From a virus, in IMG/VR virus record IMGVR_UViG_3300029267_000446, positions 1-26,415 of that record: a stretch of DNA of 26,415 bases. One strand, given 5' to 3'. The position numbers were made by a program, and so were the translations under genes. The notes beneath the pieces were generated by a model that saw nothing but the letters and a program-made list of their open reading frames with translations, was not told where the DNA came from and ran no database searches. The number at the start of each line of letters is the position of its first letter. Position 1 is the stretch's first letter. Of the stretch, positions 4,560-21,439 are shown piece after piece.

Positions 4560-4892
4560 TCACCTCCTAAACAGGTAAGACATCTCTCCTGTTTGACTGT
4601 TCTGGACAATGATGCTATTTGCACCAGTCTTTTTTACTTGTCCTTTGATTCCGTATGAAGTGTCATCTCCAAGATATCCTGCATATCTTTCGTACTTGCC
4701 TTTACCTTTGAGGCACTTCTGATATTCTTCGGGTGTTACCTTAAAGACTGGACACCCCATGAACTTGTCGTCTGGTTTTTTTCTTTTTCTTACAGGTGGA
4801 AAATCATCTGGTGGAGCCCCAACACCTTTGAAGTTACCAGAACCCACAGTATTCGCACCGAGTTCTTCAGTTAATTCTCTGTAGGTCTTCAT
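4560..4892 (-). CDS. Internal head-type protein with capsid-targeting-like N-terminus
   Basis: A 110-residue protein starting MKTYRELTEELG. The first residues match the T4 capsid-targeting peptide pattern (MKTY, a hydrophobic position, then L/I-x-E), so LTE may be a prohead protease site. The rest is basic and proline-rich (PPDDFPPVRKRKKP), with a C-terminal domain containing CPVFKVTPEEYQKC and YEYR-type aromatic residues; no function is recognised. The start at 4892 is chosen because GGAAAGG sits upstream with good spacing and because the upstream in-frame codons overlap the previous gene. It overlaps the gene at 4867-5400 by 26 bases. Confidence 0.75.
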   Translation of the reverse strand: MKTYRELTEELGANTVGSGNFKGVGAPPDDFPPVRKRKKPDDKFMGCPVFKVTPEEYQKCLKGKGKYERYAGYLGDDTSYGIKGQVKKTGANSIIVQNSQTGEMSYLFRR

Positions 4893-5400
4893 GTGTAAAT
4901 ACCTTTCCATTGACTTCGTAGATTGGGAATCCAAGAACGATATCGACTGGATCTAAGTATTCGTTCAGATCCAGAATATCTCCTTCGACCAGATAAGTTC
5001 CGTTTTCAATGACAGTTGAGTGTCTTGATTCTAACATATCTGCATAACCAATATCAGCGAGATATCCGTAAAGAATATCTTCGACTCTTTCTGCATCACC
5101 ACCTTGACTCCGAACATGTTCTTTGAGAAAGTACGCCGCGGCCGCGATCGACGCGAGTTTGCTTCTTCCGAATGGAAGTTTTTCTAGAAGTCTCTTAACT
5201 TTCCATACGAGAGTATAGAAAATTGAAGGATATGCCTTTTTCTCTTCTTGCGAGGAAAGTTGCCTTCTCTTTTTGAGAATCTTACCCTTGTCATCAATGA
5301 TACCGAGTTTGTAGGCATCGGTTTGATCGAACGGAACAACCAGAAGCTGAATGAACTTATATGCAATATAAATGTCTAATGCTTTTCCTGCTAGTCCCAT
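4867..5400 (-). CDS. Conserved T4-like phage protein of unknown function
   Basis: A 177-residue protein. The N-terminal half (LDIYIAYKFIQLLVVPFDQTDAYKLGIID, LKRLLEKLPFGRSK-like region and AAAAYFLKEHV) resembles a small protein I recognise from T4-like marine phages, whose role is not established. The helical N-terminus looks amphipathic to hydrophobic. The C-terminal third (VIENGTYLVEGDILDL) is acidic. Its start codon overlaps the upstream stop (TAATG), and GAGGG precedes it, so it is translationally coupled. No catalytic motif is seen. Confidence 0.75.
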   Translation of the reverse strand: MGLAGKALDIYIAYKFIQLLVVPFDQTDAYKLGIIDDKGKILKKRRQLSSQEEKKAYPSIFYTLVWKVKRLLEKLPFGRSKLASIAAAAYFLKEHVRSQGGDAERVEDILYGYLADIGYADMLESRHSTVIENGTYLVEGDILDLNEYLDPVDIVLGFPIYEVNGKVFTHEDLQRIN

Positions 5401-5777
5401 TAAATTTCCCTCAATACTGATGCAACTTCGTGGTTTATTGGTATTCGAATGATGTCCACTTCTGGTATTCTCTCTGGTAAAAAACTAAGATAGATCAAAA
5501 ACGTTTTCAAGACACTATGGAGTTCCTCTTCAAGACTGTAGAACATAAGACGAGGAGACATTTTACCAAACACATTGTTGAGAATGATTATATGATTCAA
5601 TAATAATCTTTCTCTCAATATGCCTTGAGACTCGTATTTCTTTATGAGTCTCTTTACATACTTTATTCGATTGAGGTCTTCATAAAACTCGTCTGTGCTT
5701 CCGCACTGAGGGTTGTCATAAGACTTCATCGCATAGAGTATGAAATTTTCATCATTTAGTGGGTCACTTAAATTCAT
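5400..5777 (-). CDS. Conserved T4-like phage protein of unknown function
   Basis: A 125-residue protein with the pattern NFILYAMKSYDNPQCGSTDEFYEDLNR, a KYVKRLIKKY helix, and ERLLLNHIIILNNVFG. I recognise this pattern as a small family present in many T4-like marine phages and without known function. It contains no signal peptide or catalytic signature. The start at 5777 has no strong ribosome binding site; a weak late-like CATAAATC lies just upstream (5778-5785). It is the second of a run of coupled minus-strand genes. Confidence 0.75.
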   Translation of the reverse strand: MNLSDPLNDENFILYAMKSYDNPQCGSTDEFYEDLNRIKYVKRLIKKYESQGILRERLLLNHIIILNNVFGKMSPRLMFYSLEEELHSVLKTFLIYLSFLPERIPEVDIIRIPINHEVASVLREI

Positions 5778-5788
5778 GATTTATGTTG

Positions 5789-6532
5789 TCAACTTTTCTT
5801 CTTTGGTTCCTCTCTTGCGAGTTTACCGAACGCGGCATATCTCTGTGAACCCTTTGGTGCGCCCTTGAGTTGCTTTCGTGCATCTAGGCGTGAGAGGGCA
5901 GCAGAAACACCCTTTGCTCTTTTGTTGGTCTTCGGTGAGTGCTTACCTGTCGAGAGATCACTTTGGACCTGTCCTTTTGCTTTGTAGGCATATGAACGAA
6001 GTGTGTCTGACTTGAGTTCTTGAAGATCATCACCTTCGAGTTCAACGTGGTCCTTTGCTTCTTCTACATCTTCGTAATCAAGTCCACTTGGAACGATCTC
6101 TGCTTCGACCTGATACATTCCATCACCAACACGAACAAATTCTACATTGAGTTCGAGTCCGTGACCGAGTTTCTCGGTGATGTTGTCGCTCTTGTGCCAT
6201 TCGTTGTGTGGAGTGTCTGGTTTCTTACCAAAAGAACCACCGAACATTGTGAGCGGATAGACACCTTCATTTGCTGTTTGTTGGGTAACATCAAAATCAA
6301 GACCGAGAGTGTTCAACTTCGCACGAAGTTCAATAACTGCCTGGTTTGGATCGAAGTAGAGTTTCTTGGTGAAGTTCTCAACGAATTGATTGATCTTCTC
6401 AAGTGACTCTGGGTGTCCGATGTTATGAACACCATAGGAACCAGAACCGAGTGAGTCGAGGTCTGATCCATATGTGTAAATTGCACCGTAGTCTTCTGCG
6501 AGTTGTTCTGTGAGCTCTTTGAAACGCTTCAT
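5789..6532 (-). CDS. Modular head-type protein with targeting-like N-terminus
   Basis: A 247-residue protein starting MKRFKELTEQL, with a possible protease site LTE at residues 7-9. Residues 30-130 contain a conserved T4-like phage region (VHNIGHPESLEKINQFVENFTKKLYFDPNQAV, LRAKLNTLGLDFD). A second possible site, LQE, at 170-172 introduces LKSDTLRSYAYKAKG, which is also found as LKTSTLRSYVKKAQ in the gene at 10020-10781. The C-terminus is strongly basic (KRAKG, EEPKKKS), suiting DNA contact inside the head. GGGGGATC precedes the start, and the upstream gene ends at 6529, giving an ATGA overlap. A scaffold or internal head role is an inference from these features. Confidence 0.75.
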   Translation of the reverse strand: MKRFKELTEQLAEDYGAIYTYGSDLDSLGSGSYGVHNIGHPESLEKINQFVENFTKKLYFDPNQAVIELRAKLNTLGLDFDVTQQTANEGVYPLTMFGGSFGKKPDTPHNEWHKSDNITEKLGHGLELNVEFVRVGDGMYQVEAEIVPSGLDYEDVEEAKDHVELEGDDLQELKSDTLRSYAYKAKGQVQSDLSTGKHSPKTNKRAKGVSAALSRLDARKQLKGAPKGSQRYAAFGKLAREEPKKKS

Positions 6533-6810
6533 TCGTGTGATCCCCCTTGGTCGTTCATCGCCCTCATCGCGGCGTCGAAGAATGTGTTTGCTTGTCCTGT
6601 GTTCATCATCTGTCCGCCTGAAGCGTCCATGAGATGTTGGTTAAGAATTTTGTTACGGTCTTCGAGAGTTCTTGCCTCTCTTGCAGCCTGTCCCGCTTTC
6701 ACGGCAGCCATCTGCATATCGTTACTGATCTCGGTTCCAACTCTCTGTCCGATGATCTTTGCGATGTCATTGGCAACATTACGATATCTTGGGTCATTCA
6801 GGTCGCTCAT
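6529..6810 (-). CDS. Small hypothetical phage protein
   Basis: A 93-residue, Met-, Ala- and Gln-rich, probably helical soluble protein. No family recognised. The start MSDLNDPRYRN at 6810 is preferred over a start at 6879 because AAAGG precedes it and because the longer version would overlap the upstream gene more deeply. It still overlaps that gene by 17 bases and overlaps the next gene by four (ATGA), so it is part of the coupled late block. Confidence 0.65.
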   Translation of the reverse strand: MSDLNDPRYRNVANDIAKIIGQRVGTEISNDMQMAAVKAGQAAREARTLEDRNKILNQHLMDASGGQMMNTGQANTFFDAAMRAMNDQGGSHE

Positions 6811-7840
6811 TGGGTGTATCCTTTTTATATTTACGCAGAAGTTTCTTTGTTCCTTCTTCTCCTGCGCCATGTTCCTCATAGTATGTATAGGATTCGTTTG
6901 CTTGTCCTCTCGCTCGTCTTACTCTTTCGATTTCTTTCTTACGCATTTGAGGCATAAGTCGGAACGCAAGTTTCTTCAGCAAGGCTTTTTTCTTGTTGAT
7001 GAGTTTTTCGACTCTTTCTCTTTCCGCAAAAGACAATGAGTTCCAATCCCTGTCTTTGATGATTCTTTTTCGAATTTTATTTCTTGCGGCTTTCTGTGCC
7101 ATTTTCTTCAGACGAGGTAAGTCTTTCATTAACTTTTTCTTTCTCTTTCGAGCCCTCGCTCTTTTCTTTGCAGTTCTTCTCGCTGCGAGTGATCTCTTGC
7201 GTCTCTGCTGAAGATTCATTTCATAGATGTTTTCTGCGTTCTCTTCAAAATCAAATTCAATATCTTCTTTGATGTTCATGTGTCTCTTGAGATTATTGAA
7301 CATCGAGATTCTGTCTCTTTTTGGCATACGAGATGGTGTGCCCTTGAGAAATGACTCAAGATCGTTGTCTCTTACGAAACCACGCATCTTTGATGCACTC
7401 ATTCCCGATACATCGTCCGCGTCTGGATCTCTTTCACCTGCACTCACCACCTTGAACTCATCGAAGTAGTATGCTTTGCTTTTATCTGAGTGATTGATAT
7501 ATCGACGAATGCCACGATCGAATTCTTTGACTCGATCGGAACCAACTACGAGAATAACTTTCTTGTATCCGTCATCACTGAGTTTCTTCATGACATGAAA
7601 GATGGTAATGGCGTCAGTGTCTTCGATGATATTCGCATAAGGAAATCCCTTCCGAAGAAACTTGATTTTCTTTGCATACGGAAGGGGGTTTTTGTTGTTG
7701 TCTCTGGACATCGAGGTGTAGATGCGATGCTCTGCACCACGATAGGCCTTCGCTACTTTGATAACTGTATTGACGAGTTGTTCGTGGCCTGAAGTCGGCG
7801 GATTTAATCTTCCAAATGTCACTACAATAGACTTAGACAT
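6794..7840 (-). CDS. Cytidylyltransferase-fold (NMN adenylyltransferase-like) enzyme with basic tail
   Basis: A 348-residue protein. Residues 1-170 form a nucleotidylyltransferase domain: FGRLNPPTSGH with the (H/T)xGH motif at 16-19, VVGSDRVKEF at 98-107, and the second nucleotide-binding motif SASKMR at 148-153. This fold transfers a nucleotide to a phosphate, as in NAD synthesis; the substrate is not certain. Residues 205-320 are extremely rich in Lys and Arg (RRTAKKRARARKRKKK) and resemble a domain seen in other T4-like marine phage proteins, perhaps binding packaged DNA. The sequence NIYE before MNLQQRR fits the prohead protease consensus and could release the tail. A late promoter lies at 7858-7865. 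Confidence 0.85.
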   Translation of the reverse strand: MSKSIVVTFGRLNPPTSGHEQLVNTVIKVAKAYRGAEHRIYTSMSRDNNKNPLPYAKKIKFLRKGFPYANIIEDTDAITIFHVMKKLSDDGYKKVILVVGSDRVKEFDRGIRRYINHSDKSKAYYFDEFKVVSAGERDPDADDVSGMSASKMRGFVRDNDLESFLKGTPSRMPKRDRISMFNNLKRHMNIKEDIEFDFEENAENIYEMNLQQRRKRSLAARRTAKKRARARKRKKKLMKDLPRLKKMAQKAARNKIRKRIIKDRDWNSLSFAERERVEKLINKKKALLKKLAFRLMPQMRKKEIERVRRARGQANESYTYYEEHGAGEEGTKKLLRKYKKDTPNERPE

Positions 7841-7857
7841 AAAAATCTCCTATGTCA

Positions 7858-7865
7858 TATTTATA
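7858..7865 (-). promoter_or_regulatory. T4-type late promoter
   Basis: On the minus strand this reads TATAAATA, a perfect late motif, 17 bases before the ATG at 7840 with AGGAG between them. It begins within the T-run of the terminator of the upstream gene. Confidence 0.85.
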
Positions 7866-7890
7866 AAAAAAGAGAGGGTAAACCCTCTCT
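7864..7890 (-). terminator. Intrinsic terminator of the KxDG gene
   Basis: On the minus strand an 8-bp GC-rich stem (AGAGAGGG with CCCTCTCT) is followed by seven T. It starts just after the stop codon at 7893 and leads directly into the late promoter at 7858-7865. Confidence 0.88.
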
Positions 7891-7892
7891 CT

Positions 7893-9101
7893 TCAACCCC
7901 AGTTCTTGACAGCTGTGAAATTCTGTCGGGAGAATTCTAGTCGGTCTACAAGTTTTAGTGTTGAACCTTTATTGATTCTATCGACTGCAACGAAACCTTC
8001 AGGGGCGGTCACTCGATAACCATTACCAGTCTGAACAAACGTTCCAATATCTTTCACCTTTTCGAGTTTTCTGACAATATCAGTCTTCAAATCAGAGAGT
8101 TTGCGATAGAGGTCGAATATTTTGTTTATATTAGCTCTATTCTTCTTAAGGTATGAGATGAGCTTGTCAGCGTCTGCCCTTCTTCTCTTCTTCGCATTCT
8201 CTGTTTTGAGACTATCTATAGCGGACTGCATCTTGTCGTTCAAATAAGTTGTGAACTCCTCCGCAGTCCCAAGTAAAGCTCCCTGCCTTACTTGTGCGTT
8301 GCTATAGATTTTAAGTTCTGCAATTATTTTGTCGTTCTTGACGAAGTTGTCAAGGAATGAGCTTACCCTGCTCAATTTTGTCCTGAGTTGCCCAATACGC
8401 CTATTAATTTGTTTTGTTTCTTGTTTTGTGAATGTCGCTGATCCAGAGACATCCTTGAAGTCGGCATCCGTAAACCAGACATCCCTAGTCTTTTTCAGGG
8501 ATTTAACCCGTGGGTTGAAGGATGCTTTCAGGTCTTGAATTGTCGAGCCTTTGTATACCGTGTGGAAAACTATGCCCATTTTCGCCGATCGAATCTTTTT
8601 CGCTAGGTCAGAGTTTACAGGGACGGCATACATGATGGTATTGGGCTGAAATGTTAGATATTCTTCTCCATCAATTGACACCTCCTGTAAATCTGAGTCT
8701 GTGAACATGAGATCGCCTTGAAGAATGTCTCGAATGTCGAGTTTCTTCAAGTGCTTGAGTGCGATCTTAAGCTTTGACGCAAGGCCAGGTGCCTTGCTGT
8801 GGTTCTTGTCGATGTCTGCATTGGTGTAGTTGATCTTCGGATTTTTGTTGAAGACACCTTTGCTGCCGACAAAGAACTTACCTGTTTCTGGGTGAATACC
8901 AGCGAACACAGCGGGAGCTCCGTCCCACTTGACCGTGATATTGACTCTACTTTGTGCGTGTCCTGTGAGTTTTTCGACGATTGATGTTGCAATATCAAGC
9001 GCCTGTACACCACCACCAGAACCGAGGTTCAGAATAGAATCCTCGAAGTGTTCCATATGCACATTTTTTGCTTCATTCAGAAATGTTTGGAATGACTTCA
9101 T
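7893..9101 (-). CDS. Ligase-like KxDG nucleotidyltransferase candidate with capsid-targeting peptide
   Basis: A 402-residue protein starting MKSFQTFLNEAK, a capsid-targeting-like peptide with possible cleavage after LNE (residue 10). Residues 55-65 read TVKWDGAPAVF, which contains the KxDG nucleotidyl-acceptor motif of DNA/RNA ligases. It is followed by FFVGSKGVFNK (77-87), GDLMF (129-133, compare ligase motif III) and GIVFHTVYKG (176-185, compare motif IV). The C-terminal half is helical and coiled-coil-like (KKRRRADADKLISYLKK). Similar KWDGAP proteins occur in T4-like marine phages without known activity. Start 9101 is chosen for the targeting motif and the GATAAATA promoter at 9125-9132. 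Enzyme activity is inference. Confidence 0.8.
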   Translation of the reverse strand: MKSFQTFLNEAKNVHMEHFEDSILNLGSGGGVQALDIATSIVEKLTGHAQSRVNITVKWDGAPAVFAGIHPETGKFFVGSKGVFNKNPKINYTNADIDKNHSKAPGLASKLKIALKHLKKLDIRDILQGDLMFTDSDLQEVSIDGEEYLTFQPNTIMYAVPVNSDLAKKIRSAKMGIVFHTVYKGSTIQDLKASFNPRVKSLKKTRDVWFTDADFKDVSGSATFTKQETKQINRRIGQLRTKLSRVSSFLDNFVKNDKIIAELKIYSNAQVRQGALLGTAEEFTTYLNDKMQSAIDSLKTENAKKRRRADADKLISYLKKNRANINKIFDLYRKLSDLKTDIVRKLEKVKDIGTFVQTGNGYRVTAPEGFVAVDRINKGSTLKLVDRLEFSRQNFTAVKNWG

Positions 9102-9735
9102 TGGCGTACTCTTTCTCTTCGTAGTATTTATCAATTGTTTGCTTTAGAAGAGAGACATAATTCAAAGGATTTTCGATGAATGTCTGTGTAGTACCTTCCT
9201 CCGTGGACACCAGAATCACGATTTGGTCGATTGTTTGACCTGTGAGTTCCTTCCACATGATGGAATAGGCGGTTGCCTGCATGAAGTATTCGTTGATGTC
9301 CGACTTTCTCTTTTCCTTGGTAGAACCTTTGAAGTCGATCACTGACAAACGCCCATCGTATTCTGCGATACAGTCCACACGACCCGCCAGACGCAGGAGA
9401 TCACTGTATAACGGGACTTCTTGTGCTACGATGTTGTTGATGTGTTCGTCGAGAAGTGGCTTGATTTGTAGAAATAAACCAGTGGGGTTTTCGATCTTCT
9501 CGTTATTGAGATAGTCTTCGATGAGTTTATGAACAGAGTTTCCTCTGCGAAGAACCCGCATGGATTCTTGTGGATTTTTGCGTCTCCATTCTGCAAAGAA
9601 CTTCTTCTTTTCATGTCCAACCACGGTGGTTACGGAAGGATATTCTGTACCGTTTTCACGACGGTATTTTCGTCCTTCGTCAGTTGTAGTTGCTTTGAGT
9701 TCTTCGAGAATTGGTGCATTTAGATGTACGAACAT
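9073..9735 (-). CDS. PD-(D/E)XK exonuclease (RecB/MGME1-like)
   Basis: A 220-residue nuclease. Motifs in order: RGNSVHKLIEDYL (65-77, the conserved His region), GRVD (118-121), VIDFK (132-136, the metal-binding D-x-K) and QATAY (the QxxxY motif of RecB-type nucleases). The family processes DNA ends; in T4-like phages such proteins probably act in recombination, repair or host-DNA breakdown. Start ATG 9735 is preferred over GTG 9750 because AAAGG lies just before it. Unlike most of the block it has a sigma70-type promoter at 9753-9781, pointing to early expression. It overlaps the next gene by 29 bases. Confidence 0.85.
   Translation of the reverse strand: MFVHLNAPILEELKATTTDEGRKYRRENGTEYPSVTTVVGHEKKKFFAEWRRKNPQESMRVLRRGNSVHKLIEDYLNNEKIENPTGLFLQIKPLLDEHINNIVAQEVPLYSDLLRLAGRVDCIAEYDGRLSVIDFKGSTKEKRKSDINEYFMQATAYSIMWKELTGQTIDQIVILVSTEEGTTQTFIENPLNYVSLLKQTIDKYYEEKEYANEVIPNISE
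9125..9132 (-). promoter_or_regulatory. Late promoter variant
   Basis: GATAAATA on the minus strand, 23 bases before the ATG at 9101. It lies inside the coding end of the exonuclease gene, so this promoter would allow late expression of the downstream gene apart from the early gene before it. Confidence 0.7.
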
Positions 9736-9752
9736 AATAAAACCTTTCACAT

Positions 9753-9781
9753 ATTGTACAATATTTTTTATCTGAAGTCAA
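9753..9781 (-). promoter_or_regulatory. Sigma70-type promoter for the exonuclease gene
   Basis: On the minus strand TTGACT (9776-9781), a 17-base spacer, then TACAAT (9753-9758). The -10 box lies in a 14-base perfect palindrome, ATATTGTACAATAT (9751-9764), which could be a repressor site. The -35 overlaps the last codons of the upstream gene. Confidence 0.7.
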
Positions 9782-10020
9782 ACGTTTCTTGAACGATTTC
9801 GAGACTTACTCATGGCCACAAGGTTCGATAATCTCTTATCTCTTGGGTTGCCGTTTTTGTGATGTATGTCTTTTCCGTCACCTTTACTAACTATACCTGC
9901 CTTTTCGGCATCTCTACGAGATTGGACCCGACCAGCTCTTCTCAGAATCTGGTCGGGTCTTCCCTGATACTTATCGTATTCGTCACGATAATTTCGTTTC
10001 CACTCTTCGAAACTTAACAT
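9778..10020 (-). CDS. Small HNH-like phage protein
   Basis: An 80-residue basic protein. Its C-terminal half, GDGKDIHHKNGNPRDKRLSNLVAMSKSRNRS, matches the His-His-Asn-containing segment of HNH nucleases and resembles small proteins in T4-like phages. The cysteine pairs that would hold zinc are absent, so it may bind DNA or RNA without cutting. The N-terminus (LSFEEWKRNYRDEYDKY) is helical. ATG 10020 overlaps the upstream stop by one base (TGATG); GTG 10023 is an alternative start. Confidence 0.7.
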   Translation of the reverse strand: MLSFEEWKRNYRDEYDKYQGRPDQILRRAGRVQSRRDAEKAGIVSKGDGKDIHHKNGNPRDKRLSNLVAMSKSRNRSRNV

Positions 10021-10781
10021 CACTTTTCTTTCTTGTCGGTGCCGTCGGCCTTCTTATGTGACTTGTAACCCTTGTTCTTCATCCACCATGAAAGTGCCCA
10101 AGGATTGTCGATCTTGTCTGAGTGTCTCTTCTTCATGGCCTTGACTGTGCCCTCAAAGCCTGGAGGTGAAACTTCATCGAGGTGTTCTGGTGACTCACCG
10201 AGTCTTTCCTTTGCTCTTGCAACACCACGATTACGCTTGCGTAACTTGTTGAACTCTTTCTTTGGGAGCGGATTGGTTGTATACATATCCACCTGTCTCA
10301 TGGCACGCTTTTGATTATCATCCTGTGCTTTCTTGACATAGGAACGAAGTGTGGATGTCTTGAGTTCGTCGAGGTTTTCGACTGATTCACGAACTGTTGC
10401 ACGATTCAGTGGACCCTTGAAGGTATCACCGTTGTCATTCTTAATATGAACGGTACTTCCCTGAATCTTGGTGACTTTACCAACCACACCAGTTCCGCCC
10501 TTGGTGCCGTGACCGAGGTGAACGGTGTCACCGACTTTGATTGCTTCTTCAAGTTCAACGTGGTCTTTGATAAGACCTTTGATCATCTTTGCGTTCGCCT
10601 TGACCGAGGTTGATCCGAGGTTCTGAACAAACTTACTTGTTCCTCTTGTTACATGGAGTTGTCCGTCCTTCTCGTAGAATTCACGACCGAACTTCTTATC
10701 TTTGCCAAGATATTTGTATTCTGGTCCGAGGTGTGACTCTGTTTTTAGATTTTGCTCGTAGATTCTTCTTTGAAATGACAT
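10020..10781 (-). CDS. Modular head-type protein with repeated L-x-E junctions
   Basis: A 253-residue protein starting MSFQRRIYEQ, sharing its N-terminus with the upstream protein (MSLQRKIYEQ). Likely prohead protease sites are IYE (7-9), LEE (77-79), LDE (137-139) and LDE (201-203). These separate distinct modules: an N-terminal piece; a KOW/SH3-like beta domain (IKVGDTVHLG to FKGPLNR, about 81-126); the LKTSTLRSYVKKAQ module shared with the gene at 5789-6532; and a C-terminal SPPGFEGTVKAMKK...NPWALSWWMKNKGYKSHKK module that recurs in marine phages. The layout suggests a packaged precursor cut into small peptides. Cleavage is inferred from the consensus, not shown. Confidence 0.75.
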   Translation of the reverse strand: MSFQRRIYEQNLKTESHLGPEYKYLGKDKKFGREFYEKDGQLHVTRGTSKFVQNLGSTSVKANAKMIKGLIKDHVELEEAIKVGDTVHLGHGTKGGTGVVGKVTKIQGSTVHIKNDNGDTFKGPLNRATVRESVENLDELKTSTLRSYVKKAQDDNQKRAMRQVDMYTTNPLPKKEFNKLRKRNRGVARAKERLGESPEHLDEVSPPGFEGTVKAMKKRHSDKIDNPWALSWWMKNKGYKSHKKADGTDKKEK

Positions 10782-10782
10782 A

Positions 10783-11127
10783 TCATTTGACCTTTATACT
10801 TTTAATGGTTTTCTTTTTGGATTTGATGTCGAGTTTATCTGCATCAGGCCAAAGATTCTTTGCAGCCTCTACAGAATCTTTCATTTCTGATTTTTCAAAT
10901 GGTACAGAACCGAGCATTTTACTGCCCTTATATGCAACAATCTCATCTTCATTCAGATCGGTTTCTTCTCTTTGTGTTTGTCTTTGGTGTCGAGCCTGTT
11001 CGCGTTCTCTTTCACGTCGATCGCGTTCTGCTCTGTCTCGAAGTCTTTGAGCGTCTCCTCGGGTGGTCCGAAGATCGACTTCCATTAGACCTGCAAGTTG
11101 TTCATAAATCTTTCTCTGTAGCGACAT
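10783..11127 (-). CDS. Small charged head-type protein
   Basis: A 114-residue protein starting MSLQRKIYEQ, with IYE at residues 7-9 as a possible protease site. Residues 20-55 are a very charged helix (RLRDRAERDRREREREQ), probably a coiled coil. Residues 65-110 form a small conserved-looking domain (GSKMLGSVPFEKSEMKDSVEAAKNLWPDADKLDI) ending in a basic tail. AGGAG precedes the start. The shared N-terminus with the next gene suggests both follow the same assembly or packaging route. Confidence 0.7.
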   Translation of the reverse strand: MSLQRKIYEQLAGLMEVDLRTTRGDAQRLRDRAERDRREREREQARHQRQTQREETDLNEDEIVAYKGSKMLGSVPFEKSEMKDSVEAAKNLWPDADKLDIKSKKKTIKSIKVK

Positions 11128-11159
11128 GTAACTCTCCTATCAAGAGGCAACAATATGTA

Positions 11160-11543
11160 TCATTTTGGTTGAGTCACGTTCAGAATCTTCTCAATCTGAA
11201 GATCACACTGAGCAACTCTTTGTGCCCCTGGCCAGTACATGTAATCTTTGTCGCCATTCTTCTTGAGATTTAAAAGAAGAGGCATGATGAGAGATTGGAC
11301 TTCACTCATCTTTGCACGGAGGAGTTCGTCATACTGTTCCTTGACAGCATTTGCACCTTCACATGTAGAGTTCATCTGCATGATGAGATCGAGTTTTTCT
11401 TTGATGGATTGAATTTCCTCTGGGGTCGAAGGCCCAGCCTTCTCCCCCAAAATTTCCTTCAGTTCATCTTCGTTGACGGCCATGAAGCCGTATGCTTGAT
11501 CACTGTCAAATCCATCCATGAAATTATTATCAGTCGGTTGCAT
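11160..11543 (-). CDS. Conserved T4-like phage protein of unknown function
   Basis: A 127-residue, mostly helical, acidic protein. The region from LIMPLLLNLKKNGDKDYMYWPGA to QIEKIL resembles a small protein I have seen in T4-like marine phages (compare 'I-WPNR' helical proteins), but no function is known. GGAGG lies five bases before the start, within the end of the 575-residue upstream gene; the overlap is 14 bases. Two cysteines, no signal peptide. Confidence 0.7.
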   Translation of the reverse strand: MQPTDNNFMDGFDSDQAYGFMAVNEDELKEILGEKAGPSTPEEIQSIKEKLDLIMQMNSTCEGANAVKEQYDELLRAKMSEVQSLIMPLLLNLKKNGDKDYMYWPGAQRVAQCDLQIEKILNVTQPK

Positions 11544-13280: not shown

Positions 13281-13811
13281 TTACTCTATATGTATATCAA
13301 TCCATCTTCCCCAGAGTTCTTTTCCATTGGTATCCAGACCGATCATTCGGAGTGCGTAACAGGACTTTGGTTTCCTCGGTTTGTTTCTTAATCGCATTTT
13401 CGTTTCTTTGAGAAGTTTATTTCCCTTGCGAGTGTTGCAATCAGGGCAGGCCGTCGTGAGATTCGTCCACCCAGAATCTCCACCTCTGCTCCGAGGATGA
13501 ACGTGGTCGATGGTAAGTTTTGATGTGTCTTTGGTTCGGTGTCCGCAGTATTGGCAGGTCCAGTTATCCCGTCGAAATACATTTTGCCTCGTTGGGTTAA
13601 GTTTGTCAGACCAAGGAATGTGGACATACTGAATAAGTACAATCGCCGCTGGTAACTCATATGTCCCAGTCGTTGTCTTGATTCTGTGTTTTTTATCGTA
13701 GTTGTGGGGTTGAGTTGCTTTGCCAGATTCGATAAGTTTGACTGCTTTCTTCCAGTCAACGATTCCAAGCACCTCTTCAGATGCGTTGAGTAAGAGAACC
13801 TCTCTCTTCAT
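13281..13811 (-). CDS. HNH endonuclease (C-x2-C zinc type)
   Basis: A 176-residue protein. The N-terminus (VLLLNASEEVLGIVDWKKAVKLI) and the core CQYCG (86-90), DHVHPRSRGG (102-111), W-NL and CPDCN (122-126) make a complete zinc-supported HNH nuclease, with His103 of the Asp-His pair as general base. This form is widespread in bacteria and phages as a nicking or double-strand nuclease; in tailed phages it often lies near packaging or structural genes. A perfect late promoter lies at 13829-13836, 17 bases upstream of the ATG, with GGAGG between. Its timing therefore points to a late role or passive carriage. Confidence 0.88.
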   Translation of the reverse strand: MKREVLLLNASEEVLGIVDWKKAVKLIESGKATQPHNYDKKHRIKTTTGTYELPAAIVLIQYVHIPWSDKLNPTRQNVFRRDNWTCQYCGHRTKDTSKLTIDHVHPRSRGGDSGWTNLTTACPDCNTRKGNKLLKETKMRLRNKPRKPKSCYALRMIGLDTNGKELWGRWIDIHIE

Positions 13812-14091: not shown

Positions 14092-14099
14092 AATAAAAC

Positions 14100-14131: not shown

Positions 14132-14147
14132 TAACCCGTCTGTCTTC

Positions 14148-14405: not shown

Positions 14406-14441
14406 TTGAAAAGAGTCTCCTTGTGTCGGTTGATGTCACTA

Positions 14442-14449
14442 TATTTAGT
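14442..14449 (-). promoter_or_regulatory. Late promoter variant
   Basis: ACTAAATA on the minus strand, about 36 bases before the ATG at 14405. Its divergent partner at 14481-14488 has the identical octamer. Confidence 0.55.
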
Positions 14450-14480
14450 TTTTTTAAGCATTTCACCTACTTCTCGAAAT

Positions 14481-14488
14481 ACTAAATA
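14481..14488 (+). promoter_or_regulatory. Late promoter variant
   Basis: ACTAAATA, 21 bases before the ATG at 14510, with GGGGG between. It keeps the TAAATA core but not the first two bases of the T4 consensus. Confidence 0.55.
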
Positions 14489-14509
14489 TGGTGTAGTCTT
14501 GGGGGTTTC

Positions 14510-14878
14510 ATGCAAAAAAATACAAGATTTTTCATTAATCAGATTTGGCCTTTATCAGAAGTATATAGAAATTCTGGTCTTGGTAAATGGTTTCACGGAG
14601 AGAAAGCAAAGGGAACCGAGCCAGGTTGGGATCGTTATAACTCAAAGGGTGAGAGAATCGGTAAATGTGGTGATGCGAAAGAGGGAGAAGCATACGCTGC
14701 ATGTCTCTCTCGACAGAAAGCAAAGAAACTCGGAAAATCAAAGGTAGGATCGTTTGTTCGTCGCAAGAGAGCCGCACAACGTGCTGCGGGTGATGCGGAG
14801 AAAGGCGGAGAGGCTACCAAGGGTGATAAACCCGTCTTCGTAAAAACTGGTATTACTGATTTAAAGAAAAAGGGATGA
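14510..14878 (+). CDS. Small basic phage protein (LGKWF / GWDRYN domain)
   Basis: A 122-residue, strongly basic protein. SGLGKWFHGEKAKG is followed by a segment GWDRYNSKGERIGKCGDAKEGEAYAACLSRQKA with two conserved cysteines (about residues 53 and 65), then KKLGK, GSFVRRKRAAQRAAGDAEKGG and KPVFVKTG. I recognise this combination as recurring in phage proteins, often in head-associated contexts, without known activity. GGGGG lies four bases before the start. It shares an ATGA with the next gene at 14875, so they are coupled and probably act together. Confidence 0.7.
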   Translation: MQKNTRFFINQIWPLSEVYRNSGLGKWFHGEKAKGTEPGWDRYNSKGERIGKCGDAKEGEAYAACLSRQKAKKLGKSKVGSFVRRKRAAQRAAGDAEKGGEATKGDKPVFVKTGITDLKKKG

Positions 14879-16377
14879 ACATGGAAGACCTACACGAAAA
14901 GAACAAGCCCACCAATCCAGATTTATGGAGTCAAGCAATTTCAAAGGCAAAGAGCAAGTTTGATGTTTATCCCTCTGCTTACGCCAACGCATGGGCGTCG
15001 AAGTGGTACAAGGAACAGGGTGGTGGTTGGAGATCAAAGAAGAAGGAGGAGTCCGTGAATTATAACGATATAGAAGAAACTGTCGAGAAAATGACAGGAG
15101 AGATTGCAGACAAGATCAAGGGTGAGATGAAAAAGCGTCTCAACAATCCAAACGCAACAGTCAAGGACTATGCAAAGAGTGCCAAAGAATCAGTAGAACT
15201 TCAAGAACAGAAGTTTAGTAAGGCACAGATCGACCGTATGCGAAAAGAGTACTCATCACTCGGTACGATAGATCCATCCCAACCAACATACAAAAGACTT
15301 ACTGAACTTCTTGATAACATGTCTGACGAACAACTCAAAAAACTTGCACAAGCAAAGATCAAGTTCGTGTCTTCACTTGCACTCAACCGAGTGAACAAAA
15401 GAAAAATGAAAAAGGAGTCAGTTGAACTCAATGAAAATAAGTTTCGTGAAGTTCTCAACCGAGGAAAGAAACTCGGTGACTGGAACATGATGTCATATTT
15501 TCTCTATCAGGGAAATGTGTGGATGCTTCAATCTGGTCGTGCAGTAAACCAAGGCGCACTTGAAGACTTTAGAAAGAGATCACAACCTGGCTTGCTCAAG
15601 TCTATTGGTCTTACCGAAGCACTTGCCGATCGTCAGGTGATTCGTCAAAAGAAACTCCCATCACTGGAAAAGAAAACAACCAACATCGCATTGGTTCTCC
15701 CAAATACTCCCGAGATGCAAACCAAGATTGATCGGGTTCTGGAATTCTCCGCAAGTACGCGAAACCGAATGAACAAATTGGTCACGGGCCGCGAGAACCG
15801 AGGAAAGGATCTGGTTCTCTACTTCCGAAGTGCTCAGTCTCGTAAGAAGTTCCAGAAGATGCTCAACGCAAAGTCAGACTGGACTGCGACCGAATCAGTC
15901 GAGCTCGATGAAGCAAGCGAGAAGGACCACGAATACTCAATGGCACGTTCACAACTCTCGACTATTGAGAAAGCAGTGATGAATCTCAAGAAGAAGATGA
16001 AGGGTGAAGGTAATCTGGAAGCATGGGTACAATCCAAACTCACCAAGGCTGCTGACTACATCGACTCTGTATCTGACTACATCGACAGTGGTGAACATGA
16101 CATAGAAGAATCGAATCTAGAGGAAAAACTCAACGATCCAGTTCGTACCTCGGGTGGACCAAAAAAGTTTATGGTAAAAGTAAAAGATCCATCTACAGGA
16201 AATGAGAAGACTGTTCGTTTTGGTGATCCAAATATGGAGATCAAGAGAGACGACCCAGAGAGAAGAAAGAGTTTTAGAGCAAGACACAATTGCGAAAACC
16301 CAGGCCCAAAGACAAAGGCTAGATATTGGTCATGTCGTATGTGGGAAAAGGGTAAGAAAGTCAGTGAATTGGATTGA
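14875..16377 (+). CDS. Multi-module head-type protein with repeated ESVEL-x-E junctions
   Basis: A 500-residue protein that looks like a string of domains. Residues 12-55 carry the KPTNPDLW...YPSAYANAWASKWYKEQGGGWR module. Near-identical junctions ESVELQE (ends at 111), ESVELNE (187) and ESVELDE (346), plus LTE (248), IEE (412) and LEE (417), all fit the T4 prohead protease rule [L/I]-x-E. Between them lie helical or basic modules, including KDHEYSMARSQL...LEAWVQSKLTKAADYIDS (about 350-400). The C-terminal module RTSGGPKKFMVKV...FGDPNMEIKRDDPERRKSFRARHNC...YWSCRMW recurs in many tailed phages. I infer a packaged precursor cut into several peptides. No capsid-targeting peptide of the MKTY type is present, though LHE occurs at residues 6-8. 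Confidence 0.75.
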   Translation: MNMEDLHEKNKPTNPDLWSQAISKAKSKFDVYPSAYANAWASKWYKEQGGGWRSKKKEESVNYNDIEETVEKMTGEIADKIKGEMKKRLNNPNATVKDYAKSAKESVELQEQKFSKAQIDRMRKEYSSLGTIDPSQPTYKRLTELLDNMSDEQLKKLAQAKIKFVSSLALNRVNKRKMKKESVELNENKFREVLNRGKKLGDWNMMSYFLYQGNVWMLQSGRAVNQGALEDFRKRSQPGLLKSIGLTEALADRQVIRQKKLPSLEKKTTNIALVLPNTPEMQTKIDRVLEFSASTRNRMNKLVTGRENRGKDLVLYFRSAQSRKKFQKMLNAKSDWTATESVELDEASEKDHEYSMARSQLSTIEKAVMNLKKKMKGEGNLEAWVQSKLTKAADYIDSVSDYIDSGEHDIEESNLEEKLNDPVRTSGGPKKFMVKVKDPSTGNEKTVRFGDPNMEIKRDDPERRKSFRARHNCENPGPKTKARYWSCRMWEKGKKVSELD

Positions 16378-16385
16378 AACACCAA

Positions 16386-17258
16386 ATGAAAACAGTAAAG
16401 CAACTCATCACAAAAACTGGTTGGTTACTACCACATTACCCAGTTCAGATCATGAACAAGTATGATGAACATGAATGGTCACATGGTGATCCAGAAGATC
16501 CTATTCACTGGACAGGTGATAAGAAGAAAGCTGACCAGATAACAAAAAAGAAAAGAGTTGCTGGTAAGAAACCATATAGTGATGATGCAGATTTCAAGAT
16601 CGAAGAGTCTTACATTTCGCCTGGTGGTGGGAGTAAGTATGGTAATGTCATCTTTCTTGCGGGTGGTGCCGGTTCTGGCAAGTCAACGGCGATTCGTAAA
16701 TTTGTAGACTTATCAAATTACAAGATCATCAACCCAGATGACTTCAAGGAACGTGCAGTCCGTGGTGCAAAAAAAGGTATCATGAGTTTCCGTCAGTTCC
16801 GTTCTCTCGATCCAAATTCACCCGAAGGCTCTTCCGAGATTCACAAGAAATTCTTTGATAAAGGAAGTGGACTGAGAAGGGCTGCGAGTGTTCTCGACGA
16901 TCCTTCACGATCAGAACTTCCAAATTATCTTTTCGATCGTACATTCTCACATGCAAAAGAATTCAAGAGAATGGCCACAAGAATGTTGAGACTGGGATAC
17001 AAACCACAAAACATGCACATTGTCTTCGTAGATACTCCAGTCGAAAGAGCAATTATGCAGAATCGTATGCGCACTCGTACACTTCCTGATGAAGTAATTC
17101 GTGCGAGCAACGAAGGTGCTCGTGCAAATGTTCGAGATTTTCTTTACAAGAGACTCAGAGGAGCCGCTATTGACGGTGATGTCTGGGTCGTACGCGGTGA
17201 TGATGTCAAGAGAGTCAAGCAGGCCGGTAGACCTTTCAATCGCACCAGTAAAATTTAA
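16386..17258 (+). CDS. P-loop kinase (zeta-toxin/polynucleotide-kinase-like)
   Basis: A 290-residue protein. Walker A GGAGSGKST lies at residues 93-101, followed by INPDDFKE (115-122), which in such kinases holds the catalytic Asp, then LFDRTFS and VFVDTPVERAIMQNRMRTRTLPDEV, a lid-type arginine region. The family phosphorylates small molecules or nucleic acid ends; similar kinases occur in T4-like marine phages. Residues 1-75 are an extra N-terminal piece starting MKTVKQLITKTGW and ending KIEE, so a prohead protease could trim it and free the kinase. ATG 16386 is preferred over TTG 16374, but no strong ribosome binding site is seen, so the start is uncertain. Confidence 0.75.
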   Translation: MKTVKQLITKTGWLLPHYPVQIMNKYDEHEWSHGDPEDPIHWTGDKKKADQITKKKRVAGKKPYSDDADFKIEESYISPGGGSKYGNVIFLAGGAGSGKSTAIRKFVDLSNYKIINPDDFKERAVRGAKKGIMSFRQFRSLDPNSPEGSSEIHKKFFDKGSGLRRAASVLDDPSRSELPNYLFDRTFSHAKEFKRMATRMLRLGYKPQNMHIVFVDTPVERAIMQNRMRTRTLPDEVIRASNEGARANVRDFLYKRLRGAAIDGDVWVVRGDDVKRVKQAGRPFNRTSKI

Positions 17259-17276
17259 TAACAATAGGTGCAACTA

Positions 17277-18572: not shown

Positions 18573-18646
18573 CTTGATCTCCAAATTTTGGTAAAAAGAT
18601 TTATTTTCAACAGTATCACAGAGTCATCGGCGTAAAATCTCCAATT

Positions 18647-18654
18647 TATTTATA
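18647..18654 (-). promoter_or_regulatory. Late promoter (minus)
   Basis: Perfect TATAAATA on the minus strand, 75 bases before the ATG at 18572. The leader is longer than at other late promoters here and includes GGAG followed by a very short frame. Confidence 0.75.
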
Positions 18655-18655
18655 T

Positions 18656-18663
18656 AATAAATA
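18656..18663 (+). promoter_or_regulatory. Late promoter (plus)
   Basis: AATAAATA, 19 bases before the ATG at 18683, with AGGAG between. It lies one base from its divergent partner. Confidence 0.75.
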
Positions 18664-18682
18664 ATCAGAAGGAGTTTCGGTG

Positions 18683-19717
18683 ATGAAAACATACAGACAA
18701 TTTATCAATGAAGAGGGACGATCGAGAGGTGAAGCGATGGAACATGCGATCGTCACCGCCGTCAATGGCAAAGAGGCAACACAACCAGGCATCCCAAAGG
18801 GTGCCGGAACCAAGGTAGCAAAGGCAACTCGTCTCTCAGGCAAGGCCGAAGTGCTTGGTGCCTCTCAATTGGAAGTCTCTGATATCTGGTCACAATACTG
18901 GCCAGGAGGGAAGGTTCCTGCGTCTACGAAGACTCCTAAGACTGACATCATGGTAGGACGCAAGAAGATCAGTCTGAAGACTGGAGACGCTGCACAGTTA
19001 ATGTCTGGGGGTGTGAATGAGTCCACCGCCACCTTCTACGCAGCGGTGGACCGTATGGGTATTGACCCCGACACTGAGGGTGGGATCTTCAAGAAGATTG
19101 AGGACGCGGTTCTGAATCTTGCTCCTGCTTCAGTAGCAGCAAGTGATCTGAAAAGCGAAATTCAAAAGGGCAAAGATAAAGCAGTTATGCGTGCCAATGC
19201 CGCTCACAAGATTCTGCAAAAGGATCTCAATTCTCTTTTTCAAAACAATCCAGAATTTGGATTTGAATTCATCTACGAAGCCATGACAGGTGAGGTCAAG
19301 TTCGGTGGTAATCTCGGTACATGCACACACTTTCTGACATGTGAATTCGACGGTGAGAATGCTCATCTGATTCCTGTAACAAACGAACAATATGTACGAA
19401 AGATTCTGAAGAGAACCAAAGTATCTGTTCGTTTCAAGACAACATCACAGAAGAGTGGTGGAAAGAAAACAGGTGCGTACAAGTATTGGTCTGTTGTAGG
19501 CCTTGTCACCAACAAACTACTTGAAGAGATTGAATCGGCGGGCGATCTACTGACCGAGGGTATTCTATCTAACATCATTCAAAGAGTCAAAGACTTCGCG
19601 ATGCGTACATGGAACAAAGTCAAGGAATGGGTTTCCAAGTCTTGGCAAAATCTTCTTGACTTCCTCGGATTTGAACCTGTCGTCAAATTCCGAAACAACA
19701 TTAGTTTCCAACCATAA
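18683..19717 (+). CDS. Capsid-targeted PD-(D/E)XK-like nuclease candidate
   Basis: A 345-residue protein starting MKTYRQFINEEG, very close to the T4 internal-protein targeting peptide, with likely cleavage after INE. Residues 17-30 (EAMEHAIVTAVNG) form a helix with conserved acids; TPKTDIMVGRKKISLKTG (84-101) has Asp88 and S-L-K (97-99), the layout of a PD-(D/E)XK metal site, followed by AQLMSGGVNESTATFYAA. I recognise similar sequences in T4-like marine phages. A later beta region (FGGNLGTCTHFLTCEFDGENAHLIPV) and an amphipathic helix near the C-terminus complete it. It could enter the host with the DNA. ATG 18683 is chosen over GTG 18680 on ribosome-site spacing. Confidence 0.8.
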   Translation: MKTYRQFINEEGRSRGEAMEHAIVTAVNGKEATQPGIPKGAGTKVAKATRLSGKAEVLGASQLEVSDIWSQYWPGGKVPASTKTPKTDIMVGRKKISLKTGDAAQLMSGGVNESTATFYAAVDRMGIDPDTEGGIFKKIEDAVLNLAPASVAASDLKSEIQKGKDKAVMRANAAHKILQKDLNSLFQNNPEFGFEFIYEAMTGEVKFGGNLGTCTHFLTCEFDGENAHLIPVTNEQYVRKILKRTKVSVRFKTTSQKSGGKKTGAYKYWSVVGLVTNKLLEEIESAGDLLTEGILSNIIQRVKDFAMRTWNKVKEWVSKSWQNLLDFLGFEPVVKFRNNISFQP

Positions 19718-19745
19718 ACACACTTGATCAGTCGAAGGGATAGAG

Positions 19746-20255
19746 ATGAAATCATTCAAGCAATTTATCGCAGAAGCACGGGCGGCGGTACTCGGAAGAG
19801 CGTATATCGTCGGTCCAAATGGTAAATGGTTCCATTGTAACGCACGAACACACAGCGATTGGGTGATGAAAAATTACAAGAAAATTGGTGTCACATCAAA
19901 ACTCGCAAGTTATAATCCCAAGAAACCAGAAACCAATTATAGCATTACCGTCGAAGATGCCATTTGGTATGGTGCAGTTCGAATTCTCGTTTCACATGGC
20001 GTCGTTGAGATGGTATGCAAAGAGAGTGCATTGACTCCAAAGGTGAGAAAAGCATGTGCTGATTTCTATGAGAAGGTAGCATATGGTCACAAAGTCTGGA
20101 TTTATGTCGCCGACGAGGAAGAAGGCGGTGATGAAAACGTGGAGGGTCGTTTGCTTCATAATTTTCCTGATCCCGATGATGCGATGCAATTCTTCGAGAG
20201 AGGTAAAGTTGTGAAGAGAAGCAAGATCGGTAGTACGATGGCACAATTCAGATGA
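19746..20255 (+). CDS. Internal head protein-like, one module
   Basis: A 169-residue protein starting MKSFKQFIAEARAA, matching T4 internal proteins (MKTYQEFIAEAR) at nearly every position; cleavage would follow FIAE. The body has an N-terminal motif YIVGPNGKWFHCNARTHSDWV, and ends RGKVVKRSKIGSTMAQFR, an ending shared with both halves of the next protein. AAGGGA precedes the start. It overlaps the next gene by ATGA, so the two are coupled. I infer a packaged, injected protein; T4 IPI, which blocks a host restriction system, is a precedent, but the target here is unknown. Confidence 0.85.
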   Translation: MKSFKQFIAEARAAVLGRAYIVGPNGKWFHCNARTHSDWVMKNYKKIGVTSKLASYNPKKPETNYSITVEDAIWYGAVRILVSHGVVEMVCKESALTPKVRKACADFYEKVAYGHKVWIYVADEEEGGDENVEGRLLHNFPDPDDAMQFFERGKVVKRSKIGSTMAQFR

Positions 20256-21439
20256 AATCATTCAGTCAGTTTATACTCGAAGAAACATCATATCGCCGCA
20301 AGGGATACATCAACATCAAGACAGGCAAGATGGTGTTGTTTCCTTTCGCGGGTAGAGGTATTCGTCCGTTTCATACCGAGTATGTGTTGAAGAATGCAAA
20401 CAAGTTCATTCGTGGAGGTGAAAACGCACTTCTTCGAAAGTTCGCAGATGCAAATGGATTTGAACCCGAAGACGAAGAGACGATCTCCATGTGGGTTGAT
20501 ATCAAGACTGGCAAGGTAGACCGCGATCCGAATCTCGATAGCATCATGGAAGCAGAGGGATGGCGTCGTGTGGTATTTGACGAAGGTATCTCCAGTGTCG
20601 AACCACGCGATCGCCGCGAAGGACAGAGACTCGTCAAGATGATACTCGATAAGATTCCGTGGAAGAACATTGAAAGTTTGAATGTCTATGATGAAGGACA
20701 CTTGAACGACATGACCACATTATATTCAGAGGAAGACGCATACTCATACGTCAAACGTGGGTCTGTTCCGAGACGAAGTAAGATCGGTTCAACCATGGCT
20801 ATGTTCCGTGGCGAGAGTGTCAGTGAACAAATAGTCAAGGGCGAGTTGATCAAAGGATGGATGACACCACGCGGCAAACTAATGGTATATCCAAGAAATA
20901 GTAAACAAGAGTATCACCTACAGATTCTCACACAACTGATTCCGTATGAGAAAATGCGTCCTCACATGGGCGAGTTCATTGGTTCGGAACATCTCAAGTT
21001 CATTGAAAAGATGCAGAAGGATGGAACGTCAGACTTCACAGATGAACAAATGAAAGAACTCGTCGAACGTGAGTATAAGAGAGTCTACAAAATGTGGGCG
21101 ACTGGTCGTGTTGACTCCGACAGAACCGTAGAAGGCAAGTTCGTGGATATGGGATGGGTCAAGATCGTGATTGATCGCAACCAATATGGCATGTCTGCAA
21201 TCGAGGGATCGGACAGACAGACACTCAAGTGTGCGAAGAAACTCGACAAGATGTTTGGTGGATGGGAAGGATTCGCCACCAAATCCATGATGATATCCAG
21301 CAAGACAAGTGTCAGTAGAATCGGATCGGCAATTCGTGACAGTGCTGGTTGGGATCACTATCTCAAGACAGGTCAAGTCAAACGGCAGACTGAGATTGGT
21401 CGCAAGATGTCTCAGTTCCGTGAGTTTGTTCAAGTATAA
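20252..21439 (+). CDS. Internal head protein-like, two tandem modules
   Basis: A 395-residue protein starting MKSFSQFILEETS, again a capsid-targeting-like peptide with L/I-x-E at FILE. It is an internal duplication: module 1 runs from YINIKTGKMVLFPF (about 20) to RGSVPRRSKIGSTMAMFR (about 187); module 2 from GWMTPRGKLMVYPR (about 205) to TGQVKRQTEIGRKMSQFR (about 390). The preceding gene is a single such module. Each module has a conserved His/Tyr start region, a helical middle, an acidic beta segment and the basic R-x-x-IG-x-x-M-x-x-FR end. No catalytic motif is seen. Probably packaged with the DNA; role unknown. Confidence 0.85.
   Translation: MKSFSQFILEETSYRRKGYINIKTGKMVLFPFAGRGIRPFHTEYVLKNANKFIRGGENALLRKFADANGFEPEDEETISMWVDIKTGKVDRDPNLDSIMEAEGWRRVVFDEGISSVEPRDRREGQRLVKMILDKIPWKNIESLNVYDEGHLNDMTTLYSEEDAYSYVKRGSVPRRSKIGSTMAMFRGESVSEQIVKGELIKGWMTPRGKLMVYPRNSKQEYHLQILTQLIPYEKMRPHMGEFIGSEHLKFIEKMQKDGTSDFTDEQMKELVEREYKRVYKMWATGRVDSDRTVEGKFVDMGWVKIVIDRNQYGMSAIEGSDRQTLKCAKKLDKMFGGWEGFATKSMMISSKTSVSRIGSAIRDSAGWDHYLKTGQVKRQTEIGRKMSQFREFVQV

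Follow-up and report, generated by a model that had tools for sequence, protein, structure and literature searches.

The window analysed here is the whole of IMG/VR virus record IMGVR_UViG_3300029267_000446 (26,415 bases), in which 33 genes were called and which, judged by those genes, is a fragment of a T4-like phage. Among its genes are several whose products begin with, or contain, short peptides resembling the capsid targeting sequence (CTS) and the prohead cleavage sites of T4 internal proteins. These candidate head cargo genes, with the late promoter cores that precede three of them, are listed below; [LI]xE stands for leucine or isoleucine, any residue, and glutamate.

4560-4892, minus strand: g07, CTS protein of 110 residues; predicted cut after residue 9 (LTE); phrog_3286, E 2.5e-5
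5789-6532, minus strand: g10, CTS protein of 247 residues; predicted cut after residue 9
6794-7840, minus strand: g12, cytidylyltransferase/NMN-transferase-like protein with a very basic tail, 348 residues; phrog_3041, E 9e-54
7858-7864, minus strand: late promoter core ATAAATA, 17 bases before g12
7893-9101, minus strand: g13, CTS and DUF6267, 402 residues; PF19782, E 9e-116; probable RNA-ligase-like fold
9125-9131, minus strand: late promoter core, 23 bases before g13
10020-10781, minus strand: g16, predicted polyprotein of 253 residues; [LI]xE after residues 9, 79, 139, 196 and 203
10783-11127, minus strand: g17, 114 residues; g16-like N-terminus (MSLQRKIYE); [LI]xE after residues 9, 16 and 60
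14875-16377, plus strand: g23, predicted polyprotein of 500 residues; several small modules, with joints ESVEL[QND]E and alike
16374-17258, plus strand: g24, P-loop kinase-like protein of 294 residues (TTG start uncertain); PF06414, E 1.8e-7, and PF13671, E 5e-7
18657-18663, plus strand: late promoter core, 19 bases before g26, with g27 and g28 next
18683-19717, plus strand: g26, CTS and predicted HinP1I/MspI-like nuclease fold, 344 residues; second conserved LxE at residues 290-292, then a helical tail
19746-20255, plus strand: g27, CTS protein of 169 residues, with the tag at its start
20252-21439, plus strand: g28, CTS protein of 395 residues, containing a diverged copy of g27

An initial annotation had put forward six gene starts, at 4892, 6532 and 9101 on the minus strand and at 18683, 19746 and 20252 on the plus strand, as those of T4-type capsid-targeted proteins. 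All six belong to real open reading frames (ORFs) that begin as described there, and [LI]xE ends at residue 9 in the products of 4892 and 6532 and at residue 10 in the other four. Amber-suppressor work on T4 assigned residues 4 and 7 to targeting and residues 8 and 10 to processing (PMC9026906, section 10), and an aspartate at residue 10 stops processing while still allowing targeting (PMC9026906). The starts at 9101, 18683, 19746 and 20252 match these functional residues exactly (F/Y 4, F 7, I/L 8, E 10), and those at 4892 and 6532 have a shorter, nine-residue ELTE form with L at position 7. Exact agreement in four of the six supports the proposed CTS; judged from sequence, packaging of the tagged proteins is likely and removal of the tag by a cut after the glutamate is probable. 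The set of six was correct in its coordinates and incomplete, since the genes at 10020-11127 (minus strand) and 14875-17258 (plus strand) hold [LI]xE elsewhere.

The N-terminal residues 4, 7, 8 and 10 and the cut after [LI]xE are shared with IPI-IPIII and Alt of T4, and the C-terminus of Alt is also cut (PMC9026906, section 10), as is predicted for g26. The window set departs from these T4 proteins in its recognisable enzyme families, its fusions and its joints within chains, and gp21 is not seen in the fragment. The wide cargo had earlier been contrasted with only three small internal proteins in T4; this contrast falls away, as at least ten internal proteins have been reported in T-even phages (PMC12373910).

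The T4-type late promoter core ATAAATA occurs 13 times in the window against 2.76 expected, and none of 100 shuffles reached 13. In addition to the three cores listed, others lie 9-30 bases ahead of g04, g20, g29, g32 and g33. Late expression fits head assembly. We consider it quite probable that the genes encode a late set of head cargo that is docked through the CTS, cut by gp21, made in part as polyproteins and delivered with the DNA.

Specificity and distribution of the leader

Across the window and 98 loci, a loose pattern for the leader fitted 49 of the 2344 Met codons that lie among the first 60 residues of ORFs and 4 of 5050 later ones (Fisher P 2e-20, related loci not being independent), and two of the four late matches stand ahead of known modules. 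The excess among early Met codons indicates that the tag marks gene starts in the relatives. Among the 33 window genes, 0.026 starts would be expected by chance, against six seen (P about 4e-13).

In 37 phage records searched with a strict DNA form, the reversed pattern matched twice and the strict pattern itself 21 times, in 14 of the records. Its three matches in the complete T4 genome are ipII, ipIII and gp61.1; ipI is not caught there. The product of gp61.1 (L181:2967-3131; T4 18966-19130) is a 54-residue hypothetical protein with a full CTS, MKTFKEFIKE. The gp21 family, Peptidase_S77 (PF03420), is represented in 11 of the 37 records (T4, KVP40, S-PM2, phiM12, HTVC008M, Melnitz, DLP_6, C48C1 and three contigs) and was not found in T5, SPO1, phiKZ, FelixO1, RHEph12 or the remaining contigs; it is also present in S-SM1, Atu_ph07 and CC2. 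Among the eight named complete genomes that carry gp21, the strict pattern matches in T4, KVP40 and C48C1.

Family comparisons were confined to homologues with the N-terminus in view. In the tag families g07, g10, g13 and g26 plus g12, [LI]xE occurs at residues 8-14 in 61 of 108 homologues (g10, 13/15; g12, 20/37; DUF6267, 21/45), vs 13 of 86 in nine other window families; g22 (1/2) was placed in neither group, and g16, g23, g24 and g25 have no homologue in view. These counts bear on a rival view, in which the common start is unrelated to packaging and is just a general N-terminal helix or expression leader. The motif is indeed short and is absent from many homologues of the same families, yet four of the six starts agree at every position mapped in T4 (PMC9026906, section 10), the pattern marks ipII and ipIII in T4 itself, and the control families fall far below the tag families, so that a generic leader appears very improbable.

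The tag comes and goes inside one family, DUF6267, which the initial annotation had missed. Fifty distinct N-termini of this family show three main states: a tag ending in [LI]xE, 2-6 residues ahead of the domain; a direct start, such as MGAK, MAVK or MAK, at the point where AK or SK would remain after cutting; and, in pelagiphages (L019, L023, L028, L033), the leader MFSFKGFITK, in which residues 4 and 7 are kept and E10 is lost. From these residues, the pelagiphage protein is predicted to be packaged but left uncut. The domain is held by 465 phage records, mostly of cyanophages, and gp21 is present in all six complete DUF6267 genomes tested (HTVC008M, Melnitz, S-PM2, S-SM1, DLP_6, C48C1).

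Several observations on the leader weigh against a cargo tagged and cut in the T4 manner. No gp21 (PF03420) was found in the window, which is a genome fragment, and g12 stands in the window without a CTS. The strict pattern has no match in the complete gp21-bearing genomes of HTVC008M, Melnitz, S-PM2, phiM12 and DLP_6, and none in T5, SPO1, phiKZ, FelixO1 and RHEph12, genomes without gp21; clean in the latter and blank in several of the former, it is specific but misses much. The looser pattern is also blank in HTVC008M, whose tags diverge more, and whose protein leaders, by eye, finish in LSE, LVE or LKE. [LI]xE is short (0.011 per residue) and occurs within folded domains too (in g13 at 43, 140 and 262). 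Finally, pelagiphage DUF6267 has K rather than E at residue 10, and cyanophage-type DUF6267 homologues lack the tag.

Internal sites and strings of modules

The products of g16 and g23 hold several unrelated domains per chain, and their modules occur separately elsewhere. Internal sites also lie within other window proteins: LQE after residue 172 of g10, ahead of an LKSDTLRSY module; IYE after residue 207 of g12, followed by the basic module; and IEE after residue 78 of g24, ahead of the kinase-like domain. In g26, L290 and E292 are kept and the residue between them varies in all nine rows that reach the site, with a low-confidence helical tail next; the tenth row, from S-SM1, lacks both the tag and the tail. 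The long window proteins were split into such modules and the upstream context of each module elsewhere was examined, a site being counted when the cut fell within -4 to +4 of the module start and the window row being included. Sites were found for g23 modules M1 (4/4), M3 (6/6), M4 (2/3), M6 (2/7) and M7 (6/23), for g16 modules N1 (0/3), N2 (2/2), N3 (1/2) and N4 (6/7), and for the C-terminal module of g10 (2/3), the basic module of g12 (10/17), the g24 kinase (1/1), DUF6267 (19/45) and g26 (6/6). The six of seven contexts in which [LI]xE precedes the last module of g16 include a free-standing CTS gene, MKSFIQYLNE-VSPPGFEG, in L107.

The start of M7 had been placed too far right; when 14 residues upstream are counted, the site is present in 17 of 23 contexts (20 with VxE). 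In phages without PF03420, where proteases other than PF03420 were not sought, M7 has the site in one of six (P 0.018). In the control phages Kolga, HTVC202P and CRP-901 the protein starts with MAKYQGR, MAKYKGR or MATYKGK, vs LxE-AEYQGKK in gp21 phages, and PF03420 was not found in any of six Roseobacter and Pelagibacter control phages.

The P-loop kinase offers the sharpest joint. Across 21 distinct contexts the domain starts exactly after [LI]xE in 20 and after VxE in one. Column entropy is 2.4-3.3 bits at positions -14 to -4, 1.2 at -3, 2.6 at -2 and 0 at -1: position -3 is L or I in 20 contexts and V in one, -2 is free, and -1 is E in 21 of 21. Nine of the contexts are internal (eight with [LI]xE, one with VxE), the kinase following a nucleotidyltransferase with a tag-like leader in five, another P-loop protein in three and an unrelated stretch in one. 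Among 69 loci retrieved with the kinase, [LI]xE is kept in 15 of 16 strong contexts, the exception being L261, and at least three contigs overlap the earlier set (HTVC008M and the contigs of L028 and L029); five weak rows (E 1e-4 to 3e-3) represent another open frame, starting MK[ST]FRDFIFE, and were excluded from the kinases. The kinase-bearing phages tested (HTVC008M, Melnitz, Atu_ph07 and CC2) all have gp21, as do four of eight kinase contigs searched, namely the four longer than 60 kb. As the named phages compared here all have gp21, the glutamate might in principle be part of the domain. The best PDB-chain sequence match of the kinase, in sequence searches that were weak, is L-seryl-tRNA(Sec) kinase (E 0.003). 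[LIV]xE also lies within six residues of other domains, in 26 of 41 cases for the nucleotidyltransferase, 13 of 21 for a DUF5824-like domain and 3 of 5 for AIEK. Agrobacterium phage Atu_ph07 (490 kb, with gp21) encodes a 778-residue protein (L191:1745-4081) in which the kinase follows VTE and two LFDT modules each follow L[TN]E.

A motif control considered internal sites with 22 residues on each side and counted families in which two proteins are similar downstream and dissimilar upstream. Across 2792 proteins, [LI]xE ranked first of 18 motifs with 18.1 families per 1000 sites (the rest, 5.0-15.0), and across 471 cassette proteins it gave 61 per 1000, with VxE at 50 and fourteen others at 10-39. 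The examples include the capsid protein gp23 and gp21 itself, as expected.

The joints have points against them as well. Modules M6 of g23 and N1 of g16, with the counts given above, break the joint rule, and [LIV]xE within six residues is found in only 3 of 10 HAD and 1 of 6 KKLDP domains. By single sites in the cassette, [LI]xG (17.7%) exceeds [LI]xE (15.3%). A crude boundary test, based on interior BLAST alignment starts in 634 proteins (1406 boundaries, window -12 to +2), was flat, with [LI]xE in 0.176 vs 0.159 +- 0.010 at random places, and was superseded by the motif control.

It is conceivable, though somewhat unlikely, that only the six N-terminal tags are genuine cut sites and that the internal [LI]xE are merely acidic, flexible linkers, the long proteins remaining whole in the virion. 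The flat boundary test agrees with this, as do the E-rich linkers (ESVELDE and alike) and the rise of [DE]xE at module starts to 39 per 1000. Linkers of this kind are harder to reconcile with a position -2 that varies while -3 and -1 hardly do, with the occurrence of the same modules behind a CTS in free-standing genes, with the missing site of M7 in five of six phages lacking PF03420, and with internal kinase joints that retain a tag-like stretch, for example KTFKEMKEFIKE. A cut site that lies between domains and is missing from most copies of one shared module in gp21-less phages makes some of the cargo look like prohead-protease polyproteins, a feature that the initial annotation had missed.

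The nearest published relatives of such proteins differ in how they are released. Polyvalent proteins (Iyer et al., 2017; PMC5512222) are likewise multidomain and encoded by phages, and injection followed by processing into separate parts has been proposed for them. Their release is ascribed to an embedded metallopeptidase (PMC5512222), whereas in the window a separate prohead protease would perform it, and the domains differ. Membership of g16 and g23 in this metallopeptidase-released class was considered and is not claimed; no embedded metallopeptidase from Pfam or PHROGs was found in either at E 0.01, a threshold that weak matches could escape. In phiKZ and SPN3US, many head or ejection proteins are cut after xxE by a gp21 relative; there, propeptides are removed, and strings of modules are not described in the sources' passages on these phages (PMC9026906, PMC10052503). 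Neither the CTS as a cargo device nor the injection of multidomain proteins is new, and a 2022 review suggested the CTS as a loader of various proteins in T4-like phages (PMC9026906, section 10). Among titles, opening parts of abstracts and article passages, with subscription journals outside the scope, we met no description of cargo polyproteins cut by a T4-type protease.

Probable packaging and possible delivery and role of the cargo

Published virion proteomes of related phages include cytidylyltransferases or NMN-transferases, which supports the earlier proposal that the window proteins are packaged. S-SM1 virions yielded 41 detected proteins, including the cytidylyltransferase T4-GC190 (PMC3037559). 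The S-SM1 gene for T4-GC190 begins with a CTS, MKKFSAFLNE, and g12 is 45% identical to it over 207 residues; unlike in S-SM1, the tag in the window is on the neighbouring DUF6267 protein and not on g12. The cytidylyltransferase ORF154 is among 52 proteins of S-CREM2 virions (PMC10665884, section 18), as are six unknowns encoded within 15 kb downstream (ORFs 155, 156, 160, 165, 174 and 176; PMC10665884), and NMNAT-like ORF91 is among 45 proteins of S-SCSM1 virions (PMC9602691, section 13); the kinship of the S-CREM2 and S-SCSM1 proteins to g12 is presumed from their published descriptions. The published passages on these cyanophage cytidylyltransferase/NMNAT-like virion proteins do not mention a targeting tag. 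Packaging is challenged by S-PM2, whose virions had no detected cytidylyltransferase, seven structural homologues having been missed there too (PMC3037559), and whose cytidylyltransferase gene, as annotated, has no tag. The authors of the S-CREM2 and S-SCSM1 studies also caution that co-purification is possible (PMC10665884, PMC9602691).

In S-SM1, S-PM2, HTVC008M and Melnitz, homologues of the cassette are flanked by genes for a gp41-type helicase and a gp61-type primase (names as annotated). The corresponding T4 interval holds dmd, tifA (61.4) and adfA (61.2) and is a proposed anti-toxin island (PMC9391042); gp61.1, with its CTS, sits in this same interval.

Nuclease-like and ligase-like domains had been noted among the tagged proteins by the initial annotation, and predicted folds support both. 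The model of g13 (pLDDT 86.9; residues 1-13 below 50) was matched by VIA-align to 6vt0 (Z 8.6, 183 residues aligned, 3.7 A), then to 1xdn, 6n0t and T4 Rnl2 and Rnl1; the top 17 rows are RNA or DNA ligases without exception, at Z values near the background of 7-8. A Foldseek search against PDB gave no E below 0.19. K58, D60 and G61 of the KxDG motif I are invariant in 26 sequences, and DUF6267 is recognised in S-SM1 at E 2e-91. With Z so close to background, an RNA-ligase-like fold of DUF6267 is probable, not proven. The model of g26, built from seven sequences (mean pLDDT 71.8), was matched by VIA-align to HinP1I (Z 11.0 and 10.5), MspI (9.7) and HhaI (7.3), the next row falling to 4.9; Foldseek against PDB gave no E below 0.93. 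D88, S97 and K99 are nearly invariant in a 10-row alignment, and a HinP1I/MspI-type restriction endonuclease fold is predicted.

In the mechanism that we propose, the cargo genes would be transcribed late as one set, and the T4-type CTS would dock each tagged product to the prohead core. A gp21-family protease would then cut after [LI]xE, so that the tag comes off and the protein stays in the head with the DNA. The same site would part modules or enzymes in polyproteins and fusions, whereby one targeting event could load several proteins that are freed at maturation. The cargo (RNA-ligase-fold protein, nucleotidyltransferase, P-loop kinase, restriction-enzyme-fold nuclease and small basic modules) would be carried into the host along with the DNA and would there most likely counter host defence or repair damage in the first minutes. 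We infer injection into the host, and likewise the function of the cargo.

Packaged proteins might instead remain in the head as core or DNA-condensing parts, neither ejected nor active in the host. Some modules are small and basic, as DNA-bound head proteins would be (the g12 protein has a net charge of +41). This alternative is unlikely in view of the enzyme folds with conserved motifs, the location of the cassette in an interval whose T4 counterpart has been proposed to be an anti-toxin island (PMC9391042), and the precedent of T4 Ip1-3, proteins with a leader of this kind that enter the host by injection and inhibit GmrSD restriction enzymes (PMC12373910).

Under delivery into the host, a more specific role can be put forward. 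Phage RNA repair parts are described as including RNA ligase, kinase, phosphatase and nucleotidyltransferase (PMC7824862, PMC9503650). This enzyme set, together with the precedent of T4 Ip1-3, makes an injected repair and anti-defence kit our preferred guess, a tentative and still doubtful one: marine T4-like phages might carry a CTS-packed kit, partly in the form of polyproteins cut by the capsid protease, against tRNA-cutting or restriction defences. Its members would be the RNA-ligase-fold DUF6267 protein, the nucleotidyltransferase, the P-loop kinase, a HAD phosphatase in some relatives and the restriction-type nuclease, loaded in one step and ready when the DNA enters.

If the proposed cargo system is real, the earliest phage enzymes at work in an infected marine bacterium would be carried in and not made from phage genes. 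The tag and cut site would make it easier to compile from sequence what many T4-like phages carry, unknown cyanophage virion proteins (22 in S-CREM2) would become testable, and the capsid protease would double as a polyprotein-processing enzyme, a role not met in the parts of the literature found.

By sequence comparison, g28 is an expanded copy of g27: the two are 29% identical over 194 residues (E 3e-11), and g28 has a second copy of the g27 C-terminal motif (21-residue match, E 0.003). With the near-identical contig of L010/L106 excluded, g17, g27, g28 and g32 have no homologue among the compared loci, and a scan for a relative of g28 found none.

Endonuclease-type genes lie amid the cargo, namely a SegE-like GIY-YIG gene, two HNH genes and a staphylococcal-nuclease homologue (3493-3942, 9778-10023, 13281-13811 and 25476-25865), and 1628-2221 is HNH-like by eye, without a Pfam match. 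The gene at 2243-3259 (plus strand) encodes 338 residues with, by eye, a signal peptide and porin-like sequence and has no Pfam match; a shared origin with the HTVC008M porin is not supported (E 0.1). At 24245-24868 (plus strand) lies a gene for a phrog_3704 family protein, labelled ferredoxin among host-takeover genes, and six tRNA genes (Tyr, Ser, Asp, Ala, Leu, Val) occupy 25912-26411 (plus strand) at the end of the record.

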